A DNA stretch of 64,000 bases from Gemmatimonadaceae bacterium (GTDB lineage: Bacteria; Gemmatimonadota; Gemmatimonadetes; Gemmatimonadales; Gemmatimonadaceae), in assembly GCA_020853635.1 (NCBI GenBank), contig JADYYN010000135.1:1-64000 (forward strand). The letters run 5' to 3'. Below are positions 54,878 to 64,000 of the stretch, in pieces (within the stretch, counting starts at the first letter, position 1; every line of letters begins with the position of its first letter). Under the pieces are notes generated by a model. The model was not told where the DNA came from, did not search any database, and worked only from the letters and a program-made list of their open reading frames with translations. The position numbers were made by a program, and so were the translations under genes.

Positions 54878-56812
54878 ATGTCGACCGAGCCCATCGCGAG
54901 CGTCTTCAACGACGCCTACGCAGCCGAGCAGTTCGAGGCATATCGCCGAGATCCGCAGTCCGTTGAAGAGTCCTGGCGCCAGTTCTTCCGATTCGCCGAG
55001 CAGGCCGCCGGGCTCGCGCCGGCGAGCAGCACCTCCGGCGCGGTCGGCATGCGCCCGAACGACTCCGACTTCGCCGCGAAGGTCGCCGGGATCGCGCGCT
55101 ACACCAACGCGATCCGTGCCTACGGCCACATGGCCGTGCAGCTCGATCCGCTGGGCGAACCGCCGCCCGGCGCGCCGGAGCTGACGCTAGAGTTCTACGG
55201 GCTCGTCGATGCCGACCTCGATCTCGTCAGCGGCGCCTCGCTGGGTTTTCCGCATCTGGCCACCGGGCGCGATGTCGCTGAACGACTCAAGAAGCGCTAC
55301 TGCAACAATCTCGCGGTCGAAGTCGGACATCTCGCGTCGGAAGAGGAGCGCGCGTGGTTCCGCCAGCTCTTCACCGAGGAGAAACTCACGGCGCCGCTGA
55401 CGCCCGACGAGAAGAAGGCCGTGCTCCGTCGGCTCACGGAGGTCGACGGTTTCGAGCGGTTCCTCGGGCGTGCGTTCGTGGGCTACAAGCGGTTCTCCAT
55501 CGAGGGCACCGACGCGTTGGTGCCGTTGCTCGACACGGCGATCGAACGCGCGGCCACGAGCGGCGCGAAGCACGTCGCGCTCGCGATGGCGCATCGCGGA
55601 CGTGTGAGCGTGCTCAATCACGTGCTCGGCAAGCCGACCGCGCTGATCTTCGCCGAGTTCCAGGGCCGGCACGATCACCTGACCGGTTCATCGACGGGCG
55701 ACGTGAAGTACCACCTCGGCTACGAGGGTTCGTCGCGAACCGCGCAGGGCGAGATCGCGGTCTCGCTGGTGCCGAACCCGAGCCACCTCGAGGTCGTGAA
55801 TCCTGTCCTCCAGGGTCGTGCCCGCGCGTTGCAACGCACCACGGACCGTCGCGTGCGACGCGAGCAGGATGTGGTGCCGGTCGTCATCCACGGCGACGCT
55901 GCGTTCCCGGGAGAGGGGGTCGTGCCCGAGACGATGAATCTCTCGCGCCTCAAGGCGTACCGCGTGGGTGGCACGATCCACATCATCGTCAATAATCAGA
56001 TCGGCTTCACCACCGACTCCATCGACGCGCGCTCCACGAAGTACGCGAGCGATGTGGCGAAGGGCTTCGAGGTGCCGATCATCCATGTGAACGCAGACGA
56101 CGCCGAAGCGGCGATCATCGCGATGCGCATCGCGATGGCCTACCGCGAGCGCTTCGGAAAGGACTTCCTCGTCGATCTCGTCGGGTACCGCCGCTGGGGT
56201 CACAACGAGGGCGACGAGCCGAACTTCACGCAGCCGCTTCTGTACGAGAAGGTCCGCGCCCATCCCACGCCGCGTCAGGTCTGGGGCGCGCGCCTCGTCG
56301 CCGAAGGCCTCGTCACGCAGGCCGAGGTCGATGCGCTCGACGCGGAGATCGCCGCCGGTTATCAGGCGATCCTCGATCAGACCAAGGTCGTGACGGAGAC
56401 ACCGCATCATGAAGAGCACGGGTCGGCGCCCGACCCGCTCGTGCTCACGGCGGTGCCGGAGTCCGAACTCGTGAAGCTCAACGAGGCGATGCTGAAGTAT
56501 CCGAGCGACTTCACGCCGCATCCGCGTCTGGCGAAGCAGTTGGAACGTCGGCGTGACGCGATGGGTGACGCCGGGGGCATCGACTGGGGCCACGCCGAAG
56601 CGTTGGCGTTCGCGTCCATCCTCACCGACGGCATCCACATCCGCATCTCGGGACAGGACGTCGAACGCGGGACGTTCTCGCATCGGCATGCCGTGCTGAA
56701 CGACGTGCAGACCGCGAAGAAATACGCACCGCTCGCCAACCTGCCCGGCGTGGACGCGTCGTTCGAGGCGTACAACTCCGCGCTCTCCGAGACGGCGGTG
56801 ATGGGCTTCTAG
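54878..56812 (+). CDS. sucA: 2-oxoglutarate dehydrogenase E1, N-terminal portion ending at an in-frame TAG
   Basis: Typical SucA N-terminus and core (HRGRVSVLNHVLGKP, DVKYHLGY, NPSHLEVVNPVLQG, GHNEGDEPNFTQP); terminates within LSETAVMGF. Confidence 0.93.
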   Translation: MSTEPIASVFNDAYAAEQFEAYRRDPQSVEESWRQFFRFAEQAAGLAPASSTSGAVGMRPNDSDFAAKVAGIARYTNAIRAYGHMAVQLDPLGEPPPGAPELTLEFYGLVDADLDLVSGASLGFPHLATGRDVAERLKKRYCNNLAVEVGHLASEEERAWFRQLFTEEKLTAPLTPDEKKAVLRRLTEVDGFERFLGRAFVGYKRFSIEGTDALVPLLDTAIERAATSGAKHVALAMAHRGRVSVLNHVLGKPTALIFAEFQGRHDHLTGSSTGDVKYHLGYEGSSRTAQGEIAVSLVPNPSHLEVVNPVLQGRARALQRTTDRRVRREQDVVPVVIHGDAAFPGEGVVPETMNLSRLKAYRVGGTIHIIVNNQIGFTTDSIDARSTKYASDVAKGFEVPIIHVNADDAEAAIIAMRIAMAYRERFGKDFLVDLVGYRRWGHNEGDEPNFTQPLLYEKVRAHPTPRQVWGARLVAEGLVTQAEVDALDAEIAAGYQAILDQTKVVTETPHHEEHGSAPDPLVLTAVPESELVKLNEAMLKYPSDFTPHPRLAKQLERRRDAMGDAGGIDWGHAEALAFASILTDGIHIRISGQDVERGTFSHRHAVLNDVQTAKKYAPLANLPGVDASFEAYNSALSETAVMGF

Positions 56813-56824
56813 TACGGCTACAGC

Positions 56825-57661
56825 GTGGCGGAACCCGACACGCTGACGCTCTGGGAAGGCCAGTTCGGCGACTTCGCGAACGTCGCGCAGCCGATCATCG
56901 ATCAGTTCCTCGCTGCCGACCACGCGAAGTGGGCGCAGAGCTCCGGACTCGTGCTGCTGCTGCCGCACGGATACGAGGGGCAAGGCCCTGAGCACTCGAG
57001 CGCGCGTCTCGAGCGGTTCCTACAGCTCTGCGCGGAAGGCAACATGCGTGTCGCCTATCCGAGCTCACCGGCGCAGTACTTCCACATCCTGCGGCGCCAA
57101 GCGTTCCACAAGCGTCGGCGACCGCTGGTGTTGATGCAGCCCAAGTCGCTGCTGCGCCTCGCGCAGGCGGCGTCGAACGTGAAGGATCTCGCGGATGGCA
57201 CGGTCTTCCAGCCCGTCATCGACGATCCGCAGGGCACGAGCAAGCGGGCCAAGGTGCGTCGACTGATCTTCTGCACGGGCAAGGTCTACTATGACTTGCT
57301 CGCGAAGGGGATCCCGAAGTCAGTGGCAGTGGTGCGCGTCGAGGAACTGTATCCCTGGCCGCATGAGATGATCGCGAAGGTCGTCGACAGCTATCCGGAC
57401 ATCGACGAAGTCGCGTGGGTCCAGGAGGAGCCCAAGAATCAGGGTGCGTGGAGCTTCGTGGCGCCGCGCTTGCGGGTCTCCACCGGCAACGCGCTCGTGA
57501 TCAAGTACTACGGCCGCCCGGAGCGGGCGAGCCCCGCCGAGGGCTATCCCGCCGACCATGCTGCGGAGCAGGCCCGAATCGTCGGAGAAGCGCTGCAGGA
57601 ACCCACCAAGCCCGGCAGTGGACGGCGCAACACGGGTTCGATGGCGCGCGTGACCCCTTAG
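56825..57661 (+). CDS. sucA: 2-oxoglutarate dehydrogenase E1, C-terminal portion in the same frame after the TAG
   Basis: Continues in frame: YGYSVAEPDTLTLWEGQFGDFANVAQPIIDQFL ... VRVEELYPWPH ... VQEEPKNQGAWSFV. Confidence 0.93.
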   Translation: MAEPDTLTLWEGQFGDFANVAQPIIDQFLAADHAKWAQSSGLVLLLPHGYEGQGPEHSSARLERFLQLCAEGNMRVAYPSSPAQYFHILRRQAFHKRRRPLVLMQPKSLLRLAQAASNVKDLADGTVFQPVIDDPQGTSKRAKVRRLIFCTGKVYYDLLAKGIPKSVAVVRVEELYPWPHEMIAKVVDSYPDIDEVAWVQEEPKNQGAWSFVAPRLRVSTGNALVIKYYGRPERASPAEGYPADHAAEQARIVGEALQEPTKPGSGRRNTGSMARVTP

Positions 57662-60338: not shown

Positions 60339-61673
60339 GTGGCACGTACGCGCGTCGTCATCATCGGTGGTGGGTTCGGCGGTCTGAACGCAGCTCGCAC
60401 GCTCGGGAAGTCCGACGTCGAGGTGATCCTCATCGACCGCACCAACCATCACCTCTTCCAGCCGCTGCTCTACCAGGTGGCGACGACGTCGCTCGCGCCG
60501 AGCGAGATCACGGCGCCCATCCGGTGGGTGCTGCGGCAGCAGAAGAACGTCACCACCTTGCTCGGCACGGTGGAGAAGATCGACCGCGCGTCACGCGCGA
60601 TCCGAGTGGTCGGAGAGCCGGACCCGATCCACTACGACTATCTCATCGTCGCGACGGGGACGCGCCACTCGTACTTCTCGCACCCGGAGTGGGAGAAGTG
60701 GGCGCCGGGATTGAAGAGCATCGAGGACGCGCGTCGCATCCGGAAGCGCTTCCTGCTCGCGTTCGAACGCGCGGAGTGGGAGGAGGATCCGGTCGCACGC
60801 GCTGCACTGCTCACGTTCATCATCGTGGGCGGTGGCCCCACGGGCGTGGAACTCGCCGGCGTGTTGCCTGAGATGTGCAAGCGCGCGTTCCGCCCGGACT
60901 TCCGCCGCATCGACACCTCGAAGGTGCGCGTGATCCTGCTCGAAGGGGGCCCACGCATCCTGCCGAGTTTCCCGGAGTCGCTGTCGGAGCGCGCGAAGCG
61001 GGATCTCGAGCGGCTGGGTGTGGAGGTCCGGCTCAACACGATCGTCACAGGGATCGATGAAGAGGGCGTGACGATCGGTGCCGATCGTATCCGGTCGCAG
61101 TCGGTGTTCTGGGCGGCGGGCAACGCCGCGTCGCCACTCGGCAAGGCGCTTGAGACGCCGCTCGAGCGCACGGGCCGTGTGTTGTTGGAGCCCGACCTCT
61201 CAGTGCCCGGTGATGCGCGCGTGTACGTGGTCGGTGACCTCGCCGCGGTGCCGTGGCAGGGCGACGTGCTCGTGCCTGCCGTGGCGCCGGCGGCGAACCA
61301 GATGGGGCAGCATGCCGCACGGAACATCCTGCGGCATCTGCGCGGTGAGAAGGGCGAGCCGTTCCGCTACACGAACAAGGGTGAACTCGCGACCATCGGG
61401 CGTCACCACGCGGTCGCGTCGCTCGGGGGAGGCAAGTTGAAGATCACGGGCTCCATCGCGTGGATCTTCTGGCTCTTCATCCACATCATGTACCTCGTCG
61501 GCTTCCGCAACCGGCTCAGCGTGCTCCTGCAGTGGGCGTACAACTATCTGTTCTGGGAGCGTGGCGTGCGGTTGATCACGGAGACCGAGGACGCGAGCAT
61601 GTCGCGGCATCCGGCGATGACGGGGCGGACGGGGGAGTTCGAGCGGCGGCAGGTGGGTGCGTCGGGTCCCTGA
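60339..61673 (+). CDS. NAD(P)/FAD-dependent oxidoreductase, type II NADH dehydrogenase-like
   Basis: VVIIGGGFGGLNAARTLGKSDVEVILIDRTNHHLFQPLLYQVAT, VVGDLAAV, C-terminal membrane-association segment. Confidence 0.9.
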   Translation: MARTRVVIIGGGFGGLNAARTLGKSDVEVILIDRTNHHLFQPLLYQVATTSLAPSEITAPIRWVLRQQKNVTTLLGTVEKIDRASRAIRVVGEPDPIHYDYLIVATGTRHSYFSHPEWEKWAPGLKSIEDARRIRKRFLLAFERAEWEEDPVARAALLTFIIVGGGPTGVELAGVLPEMCKRAFRPDFRRIDTSKVRVILLEGGPRILPSFPESLSERAKRDLERLGVEVRLNTIVTGIDEEGVTIGADRIRSQSVFWAAGNAASPLGKALETPLERTGRVLLEPDLSVPGDARVYVVGDLAAVPWQGDVLVPAVAPAANQMGQHAARNILRHLRGEKGEPFRYTNKGELATIGRHHAVASLGGGKLKITGSIAWIFWLFIHIMYLVGFRNRLSVLLQWAYNYLFWERGVRLITETEDASMSRHPAMTGRTGEFERRQVGASGP

Positions 61674-61861
61674 CCTGTGATGCACATTGTGACAGGAGCG
61701 TTGCTCGCACAATGTGATGCGCTGGTTGTTGCAGCAGAGAGAGGTCTCTACTCTTCCCCCTCGAAGCGCCGATGGGTGGTGTGGGAACGGCACACACCAA
61801 GGCATGACATCCATCGTGCGCTTCAGTTCTCGGCCCTCCTGCCGAGACTCAGCAATACGAA

Positions 61862-61955
61862 CAGCTGCTCAGAGCAAACTCATCGAAAGATGAGGACGCA
61901 GAGCCACGGGGCTACAGCGGATCCGTCCGCCATGCTCGCCGAGCCGCCAGCCATG
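61862..61955 (+). promoter_or_regulatory. c-di-GMP-I (GEMM) riboswitch aptamer candidate
   Basis: AGAGCAAACTCATCGAAAGATGAGGACGCAGAGCCACGGGGCTAC...CCGCCATGCTCGCCGAGCCGCC: CTCAT/ATGAG stem with GAAA-type loop followed by GACGCA-AGCC core, as in GEMM-I RNAs; upstream of the surface lipoprotein gene. Confidence 0.85.
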
Positions 61956-62038
61956 TGGACTGAACTCTTGGTCCTCGGTCGGCGGCTCTTTCGCGTGCCG
62001 GTCCGAGAGCCATCCATCTCCTCTCGGAGTCCCTGGCT

Positions 62039-64000
62039 ATGCCGTATCTCTCGAAGCTCATCAAGCGTATCACGCTCGCGTGGTCCGTCACCGCGCTCGC
62101 CGCCATGGCAGCGTGCACTCCTGTGGACAATGTGACCGATCCGGACGGCGGCGAGGCGACTCTCGTCGCCGTCCTTGTCGCGCCGGACTCGGCGGATGTG
62201 CGGGTCGGTGCGCGGTACCGGCTCGTCGCTGAGGCGCGCGATGACCGTGGCCGCTCTATGGTGGGCGCACCGGTCTCGTGGACGAGCACCGACACCTCCG
62301 TGGTGGTTGTCGACACATCGGGTCTCGTGACAGCGGTGGGCGATGGCGTCGCGGAAGTGCGCGCCCCGGCCCGCGGCGTGTCGGGGAAGGCCAAGCTGCG
62401 CGTCCTGGCCGAGCCGGTCGCCGCCGTGGATGTGAACCCATCGAGCGGGACTGTGACGCGCGGTCAGACGGTGACGCTGACGGCACGAGTGCTCAGCGCC
62501 TCGGATTCGGTGATGACCGATCGCCGAGTGACGTGGAGCAGCAACGCGCCTGCGGTGGCGACGGTCGACACCACCGGTCGCGTGTCTGCGGTGGCGAGCG
62601 GATCGGTCGTCATCACGGCTGCGAGCGAAGGGCAATCGGATGTCGCTGCGCTGGTCGTGGTCGACCAAGCGCCTGCGACGGTCAACAATCTCACCGTGAC
62701 CGCGTTCAGTGACACCAGTGTCACACTACGTTTCACGGAAGTGTCCGATGGTGTGAGCGGCGCGGCGAACTACGAGGTGCGTTACGCGTTGCCGCCGCTG
62801 GCCTGGGACAACGCGACCACGGTGGCTCGTGGGTCGTGCGCGACCCCCATCACAGGCACCAGCGTGGGCGCGTCGCGCACCTGCGAAGTGCGTGGCCTCA
62901 CACCCGGCACCAACTACCGGTTCATCGTCCGCGCCTTCCGGGGTGCGTTCGGGAGCGGCGCCGTGTACGGCGCGCTCTCCAATCTGGTCGCGGCGACCAC
63001 GGACCCGGCCGTCATCGCGAGCATCACGCTCACACCCGCCAACTCCGCACTCGTCATCGGCCAGACGGCGACCTTCGTCCCCACCGTCCGCGATGCGAGC
63101 GGGAACGTGTTGACCGGACGCAGCGTCACGTGGAGCTCGACGAACAACGCGGTCGCGACCGTCACGAGCGGCGGTATCGCGACTGCGCTGTCTGCCGGTA
63201 CGGCATCGATCCGCGCGACCTCTGGGTCGGTCGTTGGGAGCGCGGCGATGACGGTGTCAGCGCCGTCGCCGGCGCCGGTGGCGAGTGTCACCGTCGGACC
63301 GGCGAGTGACACCCTAGTCACGGGTGCCACCGTCACGTTCGTGGCGACGCTGCGCGACTCGACGGGCGCCGCGTTGAGCGGACGTCCGATCACCTGGAGT
63401 TCGACCAACACCGCGATCGCGACGGTCAGTGCCTCAGGCGTGGTCACCGGTGTGTCGACAGGCACGACGACGATCCGCGCGACCAGTGAAGGGATCAGCG
63501 GCAACGCGGCCTTGCTCGTCACATTGCCGCCGGTCGCCTCCGTGCTCGTCGGTCCGTCGAGTGACACCGTCGTCACGGGTGCGACCGTGACGTACACCGC
63601 GACGCCCCGCAGTGCCGCTGGCGCGACGCTCATCGGTCGCAGCATCACCTGGAGTTCCGCCAACACCGCGATCGCTACCGTGAATGCGTCAGGCGTTGTG
63701 ACCGGCGTGGCTGCCGGCACGACGACAATTCGGGCCACGAGCGAAGGCGTGCAAGGCGCTGCGGCGCTTTTGGTGACCGTGCCCCCGGTGGCGACCGTGA
63801 CGGTCGGGCCGTCGGTTGATACGGTCAATGTCGGGGCGAGCGCTCCGTTCACCGTCACGCTGCGTGATGCGAGCGGTGCCACGTTGACGGGCCGTGCTGT
63901 GACGTGGAGCTCCACGAACACCGCCGTAGCGACGGTGAATGCGTCCGGTGTCGTCACGGGCGTCGCCGCAGGAACGGCCACCATCCGCGCGACGAGTGAG
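62039..64000 (+). CDS. multi-domain BIG2/FN3 surface lipoprotein (adhesin-like), 3' end outside window
   Basis: Translated by eye from ATG 62039: MPYLSKLIKRITLAWSVTALAAMAACTPVDN..., continuous Ig-like repeats to 64000. Not in the track because no stop falls inside the window. Confidence 0.88.
   Translation, partial: MPYLSKLIKRITLAWSVTALAAMAACTPVDNVTDPDGGEATLVAVLVAPDSADVRVGARYRLVAEARDDRGRSMVGAPVSWTSTDTSVVVVDTSGLVTAVGDGVAEVRAPARGVSGKAKLRVLAEPVAAVDVNPSSGTVTRGQTVTLTARVLSASDSVMTDRRVTWSSNAPAVATVDTTGRVSAVASGSVVITAASEGQSDVAALVVVDQAPATVNNLTVTAFSDTSVTLRFTEVSDGVSGAANYEVRYALPPLAWDNATTVARGSCATPITGTSVGASRTCEVRGLTPGTNYRFIVRAFRGAFGSGAVYGALSNLVAATTDPAVIASITLTPANSALVIGQTATFVPTVRDASGNVLTGRSVTWSSTNNAVATVTSGGIATALSAGTASIRATSGSVVGSAAMTVSAPSPAPVASVTVGPASDTLVTGATVTFVATLRDSTGAALSGRPITWSSTNTAIATVSASGVVTGVSTGTTTIRATSEGISGNAALLVTLPPVASVLVGPSSDTVVTGATVTYTATPRSAAGATLIGRSITWSSANTAIATVNASGVVTGVAAGTTTIRATSEGVQGAAALLVTVPPVATVTVGPSVDTVNVGASAPFTVTLRDASGATLTGRAVTWSSTNTAVATVNASGVVTGVAAGTATIRATSE
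63278..64000 (+). repeat. Tandem BIG2-like coding repeats, period 255 bp (85 aa)
   Basis: Unit starts V-A-[ST]-V-x-V-G-P at 63278, 63533 and 63788. Confidence 0.85.

Follow-up and report, generated by a model that had tools for sequence, protein, structure and literature searches.

In Geobacter, the targets of GEMM-Ib riboswitches are surface and pilus genes (PMC6456294), and the riboswitch upstream of pilM in G. metallireducens is an ON switch in which the terminator sequesters the cytosine that pairs with the ligand (PMC9262584). A G-to-A change at the position that contacts the alpha purine of the ligand is common among c-AMP-GMP-responsive variants, and an aptamer of this A type gained affinity for c-AMP-GMP while losing little of its c-di-GMP binding (PMC9481103). 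The same position has been described as contributing to selectivity without acting as a strict filter, and aptamers of the cGAMP type are able to bind c-di-GMP (PMC9262584). In simulations of the Geobacter cGAMP aptamer, the position following the intercalated A (A42) is among the ligand contacts (PMC6274999).

The aptamer and its gene context

The window, i.e. the whole 64,000-nt stretch of Gemmatimonadaceae DNA that was analysed, has one Rfam match above cut-off, and this is to the GEMM-I family (RF01051). The match extends over the full model (positions 1–87) at nt 61863–61951 (+) and scores 60.5 bits, the gathering cut-off being 35 bits (cmscan; E = 2.4e-9 when both strands of the whole window are searched, and 2.1e-11 when the search is confined to the leader). 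A preliminary description of this DNA had proposed a GEMM-I element at nt 61862–61955; the sequence it quoted is present, its borders are correct to a few bases, and the significant match to RF01051 bears out the identity. When the leader was scanned more permissively, no family besides RF01051 rose above chance level; other Rfam families were ruled out for the leader, the lncRNA matches among them being at chance level. Judged by sequence, the element is almost certainly a GEMM-I riboswitch. The features referred to below are as follows (Vc2 numbering for pocket positions).

60339–61673: NDH-2 gene, the upstream neighbour (Pfam Pyr_redox_2 and NDH2_C)
61863–61951 (+): GEMM-I (RF01051) aptamer (cmscan)
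61864–61867 (+): 5' strand of P1, GCUG, with partner CAGC at 61948–61951 (complementarity; covariation in 50 relatives)
61873 (+): A at the Vc2 G20 position (model position 11), which recognises the ligand's alpha purine (cmscan alignment)
61901 (+): G at the Vc2 A48 position (sequence GCAGAGC)
61941–61988 (+): terminator-like hairpin, arms 61941–61948 and 61981–61988, 8 bp, perfect (inverted repeat; fold energies)
61947 (+): equivalent of C92, the expected partner of the beta guanine of the ligand (alignment; pairing role from the literature)
61989–61991 (+): short U tract after the hairpin, TTTCGCG (sequence)
62039–64000, continuing on the contig to 65146 (+): Big_2/fn3 protein gene, putative lipoprotein, predicted to be the controlled gene (ORF; Pfam)

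Among 50 relatives with the same A20/G48 pocket, P1 covaries (e.g. GCUG/CAGC, CUUUG/CAAAG, UUCUG/CAGAA) and two-sided changes are numerous in P2, the paired fractions of P1 and P2 being 0.95 and 0.94 against shuffled means of 0.78 and 0.68.

The leader is flanked by the NDH-2 gene and an Ig-like ORF, as had been described. On the full contig this ORF (nt 62039–65146) encodes a 1,035-aa protein in which Pfam recognises seven Big_2 stretches and one fn3 domain. A lipobox-like motif, LAAMAAC, was recognised by eye near its N terminus and makes a plausible lipoprotein signal. The surface-protein target put forward earlier is supported, and it is plausible that the protein is a lipoprotein. A scan of the leader for sigma-70 promoters found nothing. 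The stretch that separates the riboswitch from the NDH-2 gene contains a perfect 9-bp inverted repeat, CACATTGTG/CACAATGTG (nt 61683–61691 and 61708–61716), a candidate operator or a candidate terminator of the upstream gene. A second hairpin of 8 bp, TCCGAGAG/CTCTCGGA (nt 62002–62028), overlaps the likely Shine-Dalgarno sequence of the lipoprotein gene. Elsewhere in the window, a sucA-like gene (2-oxoglutarate dehydrogenase E1 component; nt 54878–57661, +) has one in-frame TAG at nt 56810–56812 (GF*YGYS), which may be a true nonsense codon or may come from misassembly.

A terminator-like hairpin that overlaps the aptamer

The segment GAGCCGCC (nt 61941–61948) belongs to the 3' strand of the aptamer, including C92 and C93, and is the perfect complement of GGCGGCTC (nt 61981–61988). 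Neither the resulting hairpin nor a direction of control formed part of the preliminary description. Computed folds favour the hairpin state when ligand is absent, at -59.8 kcal/mol compared with -43.9 kcal/mol when P1 is enforced, these energies leaving out tertiary contacts and the ligand. The arrangement is conserved. Of 53 A20/G48 leaders taken from Gemmatimonadota, Nitrospirota and Deltaproteobacteria, 46 have a stem of 7 bp or more downstream in which C92 is engaged, and in 42 of those the next 10 nt include four or more U, whereas among 31 control leaders with G20 a stem of that length occurs in 12, and stem and U-run together in two. Within the genus, the 8-bp overlap is kept along with the pocket in six of seven A20/G48 leaders (L001, L002, L042, L043, L044 and L046), those scored for the overlap; L045 has a divergent core. 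Since the 3' strand of the aptamer, with C92, is also the 5' arm of the hairpin, and this overlap is so widely kept, the riboswitch is predicted to be a transcriptional ON switch, and very probably is one.

The mechanism proposed is that of a cis-acting GEMM-I riboswitch of the A20/G48 subclass. In the ligand-free RNA, nt 61941–61948, with the ligand-pairing C92, would pair with nt 61981–61988 to give the terminator-like hairpin. Binding of a cyclic dinucleotide with G at the beta site would close P1 (nt 61864–61867 with 61948–61951), the hairpin would be blocked, and the gene of the Ig-like lipoprotein would be transcribed. Family membership, A20 and G48, and the overlapping hairpin with its conservation are observed, while ligand binding, the direction of control, termination and lipidation are inferred; the aptamer and the ON mechanism are well supported, and the riboswitch probably turns on a surface-lipoprotein gene. 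The explanation as a whole, an A20/G48 GEMM-I ON switch in front of a lipoprotein gene, is considered likely, with slightly less assurance than the ON mechanism by itself.

The ligand pocket and the distribution of cGAMP synthases

Model position 11 of RF01051 is taken to be Vc2 G20, a mapping that also relies on how P2 aligns at its GC..GC base. In this alignment the window aptamer has A at the G20 position and G at the A48 position. The change at position 48 falls within the pocket, because the equivalent A42 is counted as a ligand contact (PMC6274999). By its sequence the pocket is of the adenine-20 type, which is associated with c-AMP-GMP, the rarer messenger. All three RF01051 matches of the window's own genome have A20, as do all 16 RF01051 aptamers found in the genus, which come from nine of 17 genus genomes. 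These fall into two kinds by loop, position 48 and target. The first has a GAAA loop, G48 and the overlapping terminator-like hairpin, and lies mostly upstream of Ig-like lipoproteins. The second (L003/L210 at G000:C53, and L034–L041) has A48 and a loop of GCGA or GUGA; in those genomes that were read, it is followed by a STAS-domain gene (checked in Pfam) and then a CcmA-like gene, to which the own genome adds genes resembling CcmB and CcmC (cytochrome c maturation; the Ccm names were assigned from the sequence). A pattern search of 251 Gemmatimonadota genomes, in which only aptamers with a well-formed P2 were counted, gave G48 in 17 of 27 A20 aptamers and in none of 95 G20 aptamers (Fisher 3e-14, kinship ignored). 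The commonest form of the J1/2 core of A20/G48 aptamers, CUCAG-A, is the same in Gemmatimonadota and Nitrospirota.

GGDEF enzymes of the Hypr type make cGAMP. Across 198 Nitrospirota genomes, the Hypr GGDEF pattern was present in all 23 with an A20/G48 aptamer compared with 63 of the 175 others (Fisher 7e-10, kinship ignored); the aptamers counted were those with A20/G48, and two of 25 pattern matches had been discarded as non-aptamers by their sequence. All 35 Hypr candidates that were translated have the Ser, 33 with GGDEF and two with GGEEF. The A20/G48 subclass thus appears, at the level of genome sequence, to track cGAMP synthases in Nitrospirota, where some of the targets are pilM and multiheme cytochromes; the genes downstream include those for PilM-like proteins (L280, L281), CxxCH proteins (L272, L293) and an Ig-like-repeat protein (L288). 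A search of the open-access literature found nothing on Hypr cGAMP signalling in which Nitrospirota are mentioned and, judged by title, no paper on this riboswitch in Gemmatimonadota.

A20 alone was ruled out as a marker for cGAMP. Among the matches listed, at least 80 loci have A20 and most are from Firmicutes, where A20/A48 aptamers are common, and of the 34 genomes with an A20/A48 aptamer that were checked, none had a Hypr match. In Gemmatimonadota, the Hypr pattern occurs in three of the 251 genomes, in none of the 11 genus genomes of that draw, and in none of those with a pattern-matched A20/G48 aptamer; L205, L206 and L207, all of them GGDEF proteins of Gemmatimonadota, combine the Hypr Ser with a GGDEF motif and come from genomes without such an aptamer. 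The genus genomes yielded no Hypr GGDEF, the own genome being 84% complete, and every readable GGDEF pocket in the genomes examined (the own genome, G126, G184, G087, G253, G207, G004 and G130; a few degenerate domains were unreadable and are excluded) has the canonical Asp. The own genome encodes a SMODS nucleotidyltransferase, L218 (G000:C275), possibly a CBASS cyclase, which within the genus occurs in that genome only; a CD-NTase was for this reason ruled out as a genus-wide source of cGAMP.

Several leaders carry more than one aptamer. In Gemmatimonadota, L025, L249 and L251 each have a G20/A48 aptamer downstream of an A20/G48 one, an arrangement suggestive of two inputs or ligands. L220 has three A20/G48 aptamers in a row (nt 1186–1540), and double aptamers are also found in Nitrospirota (L274, L291 and L292).

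Rival readings and comparison with known systems

The preliminary description was right in calling the element a riboswitch of the RF01051 family with a surface-protein target, while its choice of c-di-GMP as ligand is not supported: an A at the contact with the alpha purine makes the pocket one of the type linked to cyclic AMP-GMP. Going by pocket sequence and its distribution, there is about an even chance that the ligand in vivo is cGAMP. An ordinary c-di-GMP riboswitch, with the same RNA and ON mechanism, c-di-GMP supplied by the canonical GGDEF enzymes of the genus, and A20 tuning affinity only, has a chance that falls somewhat short of even. It keeps this standing because the genus has no recognisable cGAMP synthase and A20 alone is not diagnostic, as the canonical Asp pockets, the rarity of Hypr in Gemmatimonadota and the Firmicutes aptamers illustrate; cGAMP-type aptamers can also bind c-di-GMP (PMC9262584). 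The association of A20/G48 with Hypr in Nitrospirota, the J1/2 core shared by the two phyla and the paired A20/G48 and G20/A48 leaders of Gemmatimonadota argue against c-di-GMP. A ligand other than these two is very improbable. That Gemmatimonadota A20/G48 riboswitches sense cGAMP from a non-Hypr enzyme, and so reveal another route to signalling cGAMP, is a doubtful proposition, to which perhaps one chance in several may be given; if true, the paired leaders would be two-messenger gates.

The expression platform is open to a different objection, namely that the aptamer is real and the switch weak or placed at another step, termination being poor and control, if any, exerted through translation or mRNA stability. 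With its short U-run, in a TTTCGCG tail, the window hairpin was not called by the terminator scan, and termination efficiency is therefore uncertain; the tail of the genus member L042 is poorer still, and the second hairpin at nt 62002–62028 overlaps the likely Shine-Dalgarno sequence. Against this, the genus retains pocket and overlap together in the six of its seven A20/G48 leaders that were scored, and in other genomes the overlap is followed by a clear U-run. This objection is unlikely to hold, and a transcriptional ON switch is the preferred reading.

A match to RF01051 should not automatically be read as a c-di-GMP sensor. In Nitrospirota the signature of J1/2 CUCAG, A20, G48 and an overlapping terminator goes with cGAMP synthases, and it widens the likely cGAMP regulon to bacteria other than Geobacter. 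In Gemmatimonadota it poses a puzzle, as the sensor is present and the genomes searched yielded no known synthase, whereas Geobacter encodes the Hypr enzyme GacA. No novelty is claimed for the A20/G48 subclass; the riboswitch is a member of RF01051 with an unusual ligand question.

Compared with the Vc2-like c-di-GMP-I riboswitches, the window aptamer shares the consensus, the GAAA loop of P2, P3 and C92, and scores far above the family cut-off. It differs from Vc2 in having A20 and G48 in place of G20 and A48, and in its predicted transcriptional ON platform, Vc2 being a translational OFF switch (PMC9262584). With the Geobacter GEMM-Ib riboswitches it has in common the A at the alpha-purine contact, while the A42 that follows the intercalated A in the structurally studied Geobacter cGAMP aptamer (PMC6274999) is a G in the window. 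The A-type aptamer of Desulfobacca acetoxidans (PMC9481103) has the G-to-A change at the same contact and is likewise a predicted ON switch, but it stands in tandem with an AdoCbl riboswitch and was probed in vitro, where it bound c-AMP-GMP better and kept its c-di-GMP binding. The Geobacter GEMM-Ib (c-AMP-GMP) riboswitches of pgcA and of G. metallireducens pilM resemble the locus in their surface-type target genes (PMC6456294), and the pilM ON switch does so also in its platform, in which a stem exclusive with P1 takes up the ligand-pairing C, as the window hairpin does with C92 and C93.
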